A stretch of 6,425 nucleotides of DNA from an uncultured Bacteriovorax sp. (GTDB lineage: Bacteria > Bdellovibrionota > Bacteriovoracia > Bacteriovoracales > Bacteriovoracaceae), in assembly GCA_946482295.1 (NCBI GenBank), contig CAMLRB010000203.1:1-6425 (forward strand), read 5' to 3'. Positions 1 through 3,473 of this stretch are shown here, in pieces. The notes below the pieces were generated by a model. It was given only the letters and a program-made list of their open reading frames with translations, was not told the origin of the DNA and did not search any database. Each line of letters begins with the position of its first letter. Within the stretch, counting starts at the first letter, position 1. A program made the position numbers and the translations under genes.

Positions 1-936
1 AAAGCCGAGGCAGGAAAAATTGATATTGAGTCTGTGAGTTTCGATTTTAATCATTTGTTGAATAATGTCGAAAAAACTATGTCTTTTGCTATTGAAAGCA
101 AAGGCCTTCAGTTCAAGAAAGATTTTTCGAAAGAATTACCAGCATTTTTGAGGGGGGATCCCAATCGTTTAAAGCAGGTGCTCTTCAATCTCATAAACAA
201 TGCTATTAAGTTTACTCTTCATGGAGAAATCAAACTGTCCATTGCAGTAGAAAATGTTGAAGGTGAAAAAATTAGTTTAAAATTTGCTGTCACTGATACA
301 GGTATTGGTATTCCAACTGGTGTTGTTAATCGTTTGTTTCAGCCTTTCACTCAAGCTGATTCGAGTACCACACGTCAATTCGGAGGAACTGGACTTGGTC
401 TTTCTATATCAAAACATCTAGTTGAGTTGATGGGAGGAACAATTGGAGTGAGCAGTGAAGAGGGAGTAGGTTCCACTTTTTGGTTTATTCTACCGTTCAC
501 TCCCGATGTTCAAGGTGTTGTAGATATAGCACCTGATGCAACTATCATGACTGCTGCAGATCATTTAAAAATTTTAATAGCTGAAGATAATTCTGTTAAC
601 CAATTTATCGCGATCAAGTTTCTCGAAAAAATGGGGCATGAAGTAGTCACTACTTTCAACGGGCAAGAGACCATCGAAGCATTGAAGAAAGATAAATTCG
701 ATCTCGTCTTCATGGATTGCCAGATGCCAATTATGGATGGTTTCCAGGCCACAAAAAAAATTAGAATGAGCAATGAGTCCTTTAAGACTATTCCCATCGT
801 TGCGATGACGGCCAATGCGATGGCCGGTGATCGCGAAATCTGCCTGAATGCGGGAATGGACGATTACATTACTAAACCAATTAAGCCAAAAGATCTTTCA
901 GACGCCATTAAAAGAATTTTCAAAGAAAAAAATTGA
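1..936 (+). CDS. Hybrid sensor histidine kinase, C-terminal part (HATPase + receiver); 5' end outside window
   Basis: Open in frame from the first base, so the start lies upstream; the Met at 34 is internal. Counting the first codon as residue 1, the text KAEAGKID at the window start is the usual sequence just after a HisKA dimerisation helix. The HATPase_c domain follows: N box (about 56-72, [11 protein letters not shown]), G1 box DTGIGIP (99-105), F box LFQPF (112-116) and G2 box GGTGLGL (128-134). After a linker, a receiver domain (about 189-310) has the acidic pair E195-D196, phosphoacceptor D239 (in [11 protein letters not shown]), T270 and K292 (ITKP). All ATP-binding and receiver residues are intact, so it should autophosphorylate on an upstream His and pass phosphate to its own receiver. 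No Hpt domain follows; output needs a separate partner. Sensor part and signal are unknown. The TGA stop lies inside the -35 box of the next transcription unit. Confidence 0.95.
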
Positions 937-964
937 CTCCGTACCATGGTACAGAGGATATAAT
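933..964 (+). promoter_or_regulatory. MerR-type promoter/operator driving the metal-resistance operon
   Basis: A consensus-like -35 TTGACT (933-938) and a perfect -10 TATAAT (959-964) are separated by 20 bp. That is longer than the 17 bp favoured by sigma-70 and is the hallmark of promoters activated by MerR proteins through DNA untwisting. Between the boxes lies a dyad at 937-956: 10-bp arms CTCCGTACCA and TGGTACAGAG, nine of ten pairs complementary, with the central 12 bp GTACCATGGTAC perfect. From memory, the Tn501/Tn21 mer promoter also starts TTGACTCCGTAC, so the left half-site looks identical. Expected behaviour (family knowledge): the apo-regulator holds the promoter closed, the metal-bound form activates it. 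The only MerR-family gene in the window begins 7 bp downstream, so autoregulation is the obvious inference. Confidence 0.88.
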
Positions 965-2909: not shown

Positions 2910-3473
2910 GTGGAATATGTAAGTATAGTTTTTATAATTCTGACTTCGATCATAGCTCTCTTTGATGGTATTTTAATCCACCTCTTTCAATTAAATCTCC
3001 ATGCAAGAAGTGAAACTAAATATGAGCATTTTTTACATTCACTACGGGCCTTATTTTTTACTTTGATTTTGATTTTTCTTTTCTACTTTAGACCAAGTGG
3101 ATTTTATCTGTATTTCAGTTTATTCCTGATTCTTGTAGATGTATTAGTAGAAATTCTTGATATACGTGAAGAAGGAAGAAGCCGTAAGATTTTTAATGGA
3201 CTTTCTAATAGTGAATACCTTATCCACGCTCTTGCCATGAGTTTTAGGTGTTTCGGAATTGGATTATGGCTTTCGCAATTCACTATGAATGATTTTATGT
3301 TGGAAAAGTCGAGTCTTGTTCTCATTGAGAATTCAGTTCTACGAATGATCTTTGCTCAGCTTGTTTTTTCCGCTCTCATTGGAACGATCTTCCACTTTTT
3401 TCTTATTTGGAAACCCATCAAGTTAAAAATGAATCTCAAAATGGGGAGATGCTGCTTAACTGTAGAAAATTGA
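2910..3473 (+). CDS. Uncharacterised multi-pass membrane protein, last gene of the ars-type operon
   Basis: 187 aa, function not recognised. GTG start directly follows the channel's TAA with no gap; AAAGGA (2895-2900) lies nine bases upstream. Four or five hydrophobic segments are visible (about 3-26, 45-63, 66-84, 103-122, 142-166). Between and at the edges of them sit many charged and His residues: D19, H24, H31, R33, E39, H40, H43, R46, D77, E81, D84, E102, H106, R113, C114. The spacing of D19, H24, H31, H40 and H43 around the first two helices looks like an intramembrane metal or haem site rather than a simple pump. I have an impression of similar unnamed proteins with the same H...EH..H..R and E...H pattern but cannot name the family. 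A Cys pair, C181-C182, ends the protein, inside the 18-bp overlap with the convergent dioxygenase gene. The tight linkage makes it a candidate metalloid-resistance component, by inference only. Confidence 0.85.
   Translation: MEYVSIVFIILTSIIALFDGILIHLFQLNLHARSETKYEHFLHSLRALFFTLILIFLFYFRPSGFYLYFSLFLILVDVLVEILDIREEGRSRKIFNGLSNSEYLIHALAMSFRCFGIGLWLSQFTMNDFMLEKSSLVLIENSVLRMIFAQLVFSALIGTIFHFFLIWKPIKLKMNLKMGRCCLTVEN

Follow-up and report, generated by a model that had tools for sequence, protein, structure and literature searches.

The window analysed here, a 6,425 nt stretch of DNA, carries a run of five plus-strand genes that begins with a MerR-family regulator of 138 amino acids (971–1387; PF13411 71.1 bits and PF09278 72.8 bits, both over cut-off). 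Behind it lie an arsI gene of the ArsI/CadI family (1400–1840; NF041414 148.5 bits, cut-off 116), an arsC gene with a GTG start for a thioredoxin-type arsenate reductase (1840–2259; over cut-off only with the Pfam model PF01451, the NCBIfam model TIGR02691 giving 158.3 bits against a cut-off of 174.3), a MIP-family channel gene (2256–2909; PF00230 100.8 bits, over cut-off, with the NCBIfam MIP models below theirs) and, as the last gene of the run, a membrane protein gene without a Pfam or NCBIfam match (2910–3473). The arsI and arsC genes overlap by 1 base, arsC and the channel gene by 4, and there is no gap between the channel and membrane protein genes; the five genes read as one operon. A sequence-only reading of this DNA had named arsI, arsC and a MIP channel as the genes behind the promoter described below and had seen no mercuric reductase or mer transporter with them, and Pfam and NCBIfam searches of the window's genes agree on both points and place the regulator first. 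The membrane protein was considered as a new ars gene and dropped: one search gave three relatives besides itself, and among the 14 of 368 genomes of the phylum that have a relative, only three of the 14 adjoin the regulator or its operator (L151/L191, L194 and L198).

The best NCBIfam model for the regulator is TIGR02051, that of the Hg(II)-responsive MerR, at 130.4 bits against a cut-off of 150.85. Among Pfam models only those of the MerR family match it, and HTH_5, the ArsR/SmtB domain, does not.

The promoter in front of this run faces the regulator gene itself. Direct reading of the plus strand gives a −35 hexamer TTGACT (933–938), a spacer of 20 bp (939–958) and a −10 hexamer TATAAT (959–964), and the dyad CTCCGTACCA|TGGTACAGAG occupies 937–956 with nine of its ten pairs (10+10) matched, exactly the arrangement that had been proposed for 933–964; both the −35 hexamer and the dyad are kept in relatives (below). 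The −35 hexamer overlaps the TGA stop codon (934–936) of a hybrid histidine kinase gene upstream. The ATG at 971 begins 6 nt past the −10 hexamer, so that a transcript from this promoter would start at or beside the start codon and the regulator mRNA is probably leaderless. A longer regulator frame from 848 is probably not the true gene, since in relatives the ATG that corresponds to 971 stays at the same short distance from the −10 hexamer; the N termini of some database regulator entries of 161–195 amino acids (P0026, P0096) may have been extended too far. Neither the whole element nor a dyad with three or fewer mismatches arose in any of 200 dinucleotide shuffles of the window, and no second copy of the element lies within its 6,425 nt. 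An Rfam search of the window gave no match. On the minus strand of 937–956 the dyad and the T-run after it score as a terminator-like hairpin, and such hits are no commoner in the window than in shuffles.

The first 12 promoter bases, TTGACTCCGTAC, had been likened to those of the mer promoters of Tn501 and Tn21, and they are indeed identical in the Tn21-type promoter of a Salmonella plasmid (NZ_CP092000), TTGACTCCGTACATGAGTACGGAAGTAAGGT. The resemblance to that system extends to the regulator, which belongs to the same family, but there are several differences: the Tn21-type spacer is 19 bp rather than 20, the window regulator falls under the TIGR02051 cut-off and has its third mercury cysteine replaced, there are no mer genes in the window, and the window regulator is the first gene of its operon whereas the regulator of L046 is divergent. 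Firmicute-type MerR proteins act at a 20 bp spacer, with merR leading one operon. The window shares that spacer length with them, and most of our Bacilli outgroup loci have the same kind of operator before the regulator; it differs from them in its proteobacterial-type palindrome, its probably leaderless start and the ars genes behind. In Permina et al. 2006 (PMC1526738) the proteobacterial mer palindrome is given as TCCGTAC-4-GTACGGA in a 19 bp spacer, the Firmicutes spacer is given as 20 bp, and mixed sites are mentioned in which the proteobacterial palindrome sits in a 20 bp spacer. By its letters the window has such a mixed site, a proteobacterial palindrome with one mismatch in a 20 bp spacer.

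Is a mer-like promoter before arsenic genes peculiar to this one stretch? A scan for the regulator in a collection of genomes from 84,980 species, one per species, gave 37 loci. The top twenty are 52–86% identical to it and all labelled Bacteriovorax or Bacteriovoracaceae, and in every one of them the regulator is followed by an arsenic gene (arsM in L008, arsI and/or arsC in the other 19). Among 129 whole genomes of the family to which L007 belongs, 60 carry the regulator, at 71 places (E ≤ 1e-25); tblastn finds arsenic genes (arsI, arsC, ACR3, arsH, arsM or ArsP-type) beside it at 58 of these, MerC-type genes at 11 and neither at two. In the phylum scan 77 of 368 genomes match the regulator, and the 20 places outside the family (in 17 genomes) divide into 15 arsenic, three MerC-type and two with neither. 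Whether a place is called "arsenic" or "MerC-type" was decided by tblastn of a reference set against the surrounding stretches, which vary in length; gene identities were taken from Pfam and NCBIfam on representatives, where ArsM, ArsH and ACR3 are over cut-off in relatives. Because both labels cluster by descent, the 58 arsenic places are not independent events.

Most of the 11 MerC-type places in the family also have a thioredoxin-like gene. The MerC-type label comes from Pfam MerC, over cut-off in L021, L077 and L097, the NCBIfam MerC models being below theirs, and L092 is labelled solely through the N-terminal domain that is common to its metal P-type ATPase. From the reference set, tblastn picked up no MerA, MerT or MerP beside the MerC-linked regulators; for this reason, and because of the weak label of L092, the mercury role of these regulators is a reading and not a result. 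A "DF family (seleno)protein" domain (below cut-off) opens the MerC-type genes next to this family's regulators; its fusion partner is MerC in L077 and a metal P-type ATPase in L092.

There are 107 arsC matches in the 129 genomes, and at 54 of them the regulator lies upstream in the same orientation, no more than 3 kb away. HTH_5 proteins are over cut-off in 120 of the 129 genomes, and ArsR-type matches occur near some arsC genes of the family. Among the matches listed (read by eye), an HTH_5 match lies within 3 kb of at least eight of the 53 arsC places that lack the regulator and of none of the 54 that have it; none of ten reading frames chosen from seven of ten stretches with a regulator-less arsC is an ArsR. 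At G065:C19:27595-28320 the HTH_5 and arsC matches fall at the same place, each in a 268 amino acid open frame, which is possibly an ArsR-ArsC fusion.

In a tree of 84 rows the regulators of interest fall into one supported clade of 66 (98/85), in which clade A (33 rows, all arsenic) is sister to clade B (eight MerC-type, 24 arsenic and one unlabelled); within it the MerC-linked regulators are the sister of the arsenic members of clade B. The arsenic label requires two changes on this tree against 20.3 in shuffles, and on a 100-row tree with relatives from the phylum two changes against 21.8, of which branches that are well supported (by SH-aLRT only) force just one. If the outgroups are mercury-type, arsenic control would have arisen twice, or once with a return, and the trees do not decide between these. 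All outgroup rows were grouped as mercury-type, the Bacilli from a thioredoxin-like gene alone, and some of these labels are soft: L029 is without that gene, and arsenic-type matches turn up in the stretches of L028, L030 and L031 as well. L009, L070 and L087 (shorter than 110 amino acids, at contig ends or broken) and identical proteins were excluded from the 84-row tree, in which L115 lies outside the 66-row clade; L115, ZntR, CueR and L029 were excluded from the 100-row tree, and the partial matches L034–L037 and the copies L038–L045 from the comparison of promoters and operators.

Conservation of the dyad and long spacer among orthologous operons had been set beforehand as one point on which the sequence-only reading would stand or fall, and it held: the spacer to a hexamer starting TA is 20 bp in 64 of the 66 regulators (24 of 25 in group A1, 4/4 in A1b, 3/3 in A0, 8/8 MerC-linked and 25/25 in B). 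The arsenic-linked L088 has no such promoter (0/1). Automatic scoring gave 18 or 21 bp at eight loci, where an anchored recount gives 20 bp, and in L066 and L067 the 20 bp spacer reaches only a poor TAATAA. The start codon lies 5–9 nt past the −10 hexamer in 59 of the 66 (A1 20/25, A1b 4/4, A0 3/3, L088 0/1, MerC-linked 8/8, B 24/25); the leader is longer in L056, L062, L065, L069 and L109, and L052, whose −35 hexamer is decayed, fits by eye.

The operator itself was sought as the pattern TTGACYCYGTACYNNNGTACRG with at most one mismatch, which occurs at 65 sites in 54 of the 129 genomes, while the reversed pattern occurs at none in the same genomes. Fifty-five of these sites are within 150 bp upstream of the regulator. 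Seven of the ten that lie elsewhere precede arsenic-type genes, one of them weakly identified: arsH (L148 and L156), arsC-ACR3 (L150), a second, divergent arsC-like gene that adjoins the regulator (L149, below NCBIfam cut-off), arsI at an internal site (L154), arsI with just the end of a regulator gene before it (L155), and a gene with a weak likeness to ArsI (L153; 27.9 bits, cut-off 116). Of the other three sites, that of L151 precedes a gene related to the one for the window's membrane protein, that of L157 an 81 amino acid frame of no known identity, and that of L152 lies inside a long reading frame, where the match is probably chance. In L150 (1488-1969) the regulator gene is lost except for its first codons, which are fused to arsC as its start immediately after the operator; by sequence this is a natural deletion that placed arsC under the operator-promoter. 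The genome of L150 has a regulator on another contig, beside arsM.

Does the regulator read this dyad? Of 102 rows examined for covariation, 92 have a readable operator and ten do not. Arg25, the residue present in the window regulator (codon 1043–1045), goes with GTAC in both half-sites in 69 of 74 rows; the five exceptions are L181 (one GTAG), L025 (GAAG) and L029, L090 and L188 (other letters). With Gln25 (10 rows) or Leu25 (2 rows) at least one half-site is GTAG in all 12, and the remaining rows are L086 (Asn25, one GTAG) and five with Lys25, two of which have one GTAG. Residue 25 is the best separator of the operator classes among positions 1–74 (overlap 0.09), and its association with the half-site recurs in the family's MerC-linked clade, in Rhodospirillaceae and in the arsenic-linked L175; the MerC-linked L097 has Arg25 and GTAC. 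Short of a gel shift, this covariation is the strongest indication that the regulator reads the dyad.

The ligand site was compared by reference to the mercury cysteines of Tn501 MerR, C82, C117 and C126. The first two are present in the window regulator as C79 (codon 1205–1207) and C114 (1310–1312), the third aligned position is F124 (1340–1342), and a cysteine, C129 (1355–1357), lies five residues further on. The clade of the window regulator has C79, C114 and C129 in 25 of 25 members, with Tyr, Phe or His and never Cys at 124; in four near relatives the three cysteines are accompanied by Val at 124, and three others of clade A have C79 and C114 plus C123, C124 and C129. The arsenic regulators of clade B have C79, C113, C114 and C124 in 25 of 25 (among them L095, a row whose neighbours carry no label) and C129 in 22. 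In their MerC-linked sister (L076, L078–L080, L082, L084, L092 and L097) the classical C79/C114/C124 set is present in all eight, C113 in none and C129 in three. No single cysteine set fits all arsenic-linked members, because position 114 is Ser in L088 and C129 is missing from three members of clade B. The arsenic-linked L174–L177 (G276 and G277, outside the family) have Gly for C79 and keep C114, C124, C129 and a terminal Cys, which suggests a site within one subunit. An AlphaFold model of the regulator (mean pLDDT 78.4, pTM 0.47) has a continuous helix over 79–133 with weak confidence, too weak to place C124 and C129.

We conclude that the element is very probably the operator-promoter of an autoregulated and co-transcribed MerR-type ars activator that senses a trivalent arsenical, most likely As(III). 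In MerR, CueR and their relatives the apo dimer bends an over-long spacer and keeps the promoter closed, and the ligand untwists the DNA so that the polymerase engages both hexamers. By analogy a regulator dimer on the dyad in the 20 bp spacer would hold the promoter off until a trivalent arsenical, most likely As(III), bound its cysteines; the DNA would then be distorted so that RNA polymerase could use the −35 and −10 hexamers, raising transcription of the regulator, arsI, arsC, the MIP channel and the membrane protein. The arsenic site would consist of C79 from one subunit together with C114 and C129 from its partner, in effect a mercury site with its third cysteine shifted five residues. 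Since the regulator leads the operon, it would also activate its own synthesis. The products would remove arsenic: ArsC would reduce arsenate to arsenite, ArsI would cleave the C–As bond, and the MIP channel would let arsenite leave down its gradient, as described for AqpS, a MIP channel of Sinorhizobium meliloti. The S. meliloti operon, arsR-aqpS-arsC-arsH, is under ArsR/SmtB-family control; the window operon has the same kind of gene set (arsC plus a MIP channel), but its regulator is of the MerR family without HTH_5 and is expected to activate and not just repress.

The sequence-only reading had offered two possibilities, a mercury-type switch rewired to arsenic or an operon that answers to another thiophilic metal. 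The first is now strongly favoured, as ars genes lie behind the clade's regulators and also behind operators away from a regulator start, and we infer As(III) as the ligand. It is favoured further because the sister lineage with the classical triad and a different half-site in seven of eight serves MerC-type genes. These MerC-linked proteins have the same 20 bp spacer and start near the −10 hexamer and belong to the same 66-row clade as the window regulator; they differ from it in the C79/C114/C124 triad, in having at least one GTAG half-site in 7/8, and in the MerC-type and thioredoxin-like genes that accompany them.

Which arsenical is sensed is less certain. MAs(III), the methylated trivalent arsenical, or Sb(III) is a possible inducer in place of inorganic As(III), though on the evidence we doubt it: arsI leads the genes behind the window regulator, and other members control arsH, arsM or ArsP-type genes, but half or so of the arsC matches (the 54 of 107 above) have the regulator before them and ArsC acts on inorganic arsenate, and the arsI reference finds little in the operons of clade B. 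MAs(III) takes two cysteines, and the three invariant cysteines fit As(III) better.

It is improbable that the regulator still senses Hg(II) and that the arsenic genes came under mercury control by cross-talk. The operator is almost identical to that of the Tn21-type mer promoter, and in a report on P. pseudoalcaligenes Ars proteins rise under mercury and a MerR2 site is predicted at arsR (PMC10433974). Against this, the reference set finds no mer gene around the arsenic-linked places except for a weak MerP match (31%) on the other strand upstream of the regulator at L049, and the third mercury cysteine position is Tyr, Phe or His throughout the window clade. Furthermore, in each of five genomes (G025, G028, G032, G033 and G036) a MerC-linked regulator occurs together with an arsenic-linked one, and their operators differ. 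A plain Hg(II) MerR identity was rejected on the sub-threshold TIGR02051 score and the incomplete cysteine triad. That the regulator senses some other metal (Zn, Cd, Pb or Cu), the arsenic linkage being incidental, is very improbable: the NCBIfam ZntR, CueR and CadR/PbrR models do score it, below their cut-offs, but arsenic genes recur in divergent lineages and behind operators away from a regulator start, and a CDF exporter near L007 is on the opposite strand. Finally, a simple sigma-70 scan of the window, limited to spacers of 16–18 bp, did no better than on shuffles, but the dyad has virtually no chance of being an accidental or non-functional sequence, which the 0/200 shuffles, the 65 sites against none for the reversed pattern in 129 genomes and the residue 25 covariation rule out.

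Arsenic operons are thought of as ArsR-repressed. For the arsenic-sensing activator preferred here, a MerR protein that would respond to As(III), we lean, by a small degree, toward the broader view that it represents a phylum-wide MerR lineage and the first native arsenic branch of the family. As(III) sensing would have come through two changes of the mercury site, a third cysteine moved five residues in the window clade and a vicinal C113 added in clade B, and a mercury-sensing sister present in some of the same genomes would be set apart by the residue 25 change that re-codes the half-site. The full-text literature searched, which leaves most subscription papers and bioRxiv preprints outside its scope, yielded no arsenic-responsive MerR; the closest report found is the predicted MerR2 site at arsR of P. 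pseudoalcaligenes (PMC10433974). A MerR activator in control of ars operons, alongside a sister that has the classical triad, would be a natural experiment on ligand change in metal sensors, and the same pair bears on how related sensors avoid each other's operators; the key residues can be named as 25, 113, 114, 124 and 129. Arsenic regulons would be predictable from the operator alone, and activator-type arsenic biosensors may be possible.

Similar sites occur in other settings. On the plasmid of the arsenite-oxidising bacterium NT-25 a MerR gene and an MFS transporter gene are separated by a stretch with a near-identical operator-promoter, TTGACTCCGTACCGCAGTACGGAGCGTATAAT (L047:3591-3630); sites similar to it are seen on other plasmids, several of which carry annotated MerR genes. 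In Geomicrobium halophilum of the Bacilli outgroup arsC is directly upstream of a MerR gene (L030:5455-6354), and given this locus the arsenic linkage of MerR genes may extend beyond the phylum.
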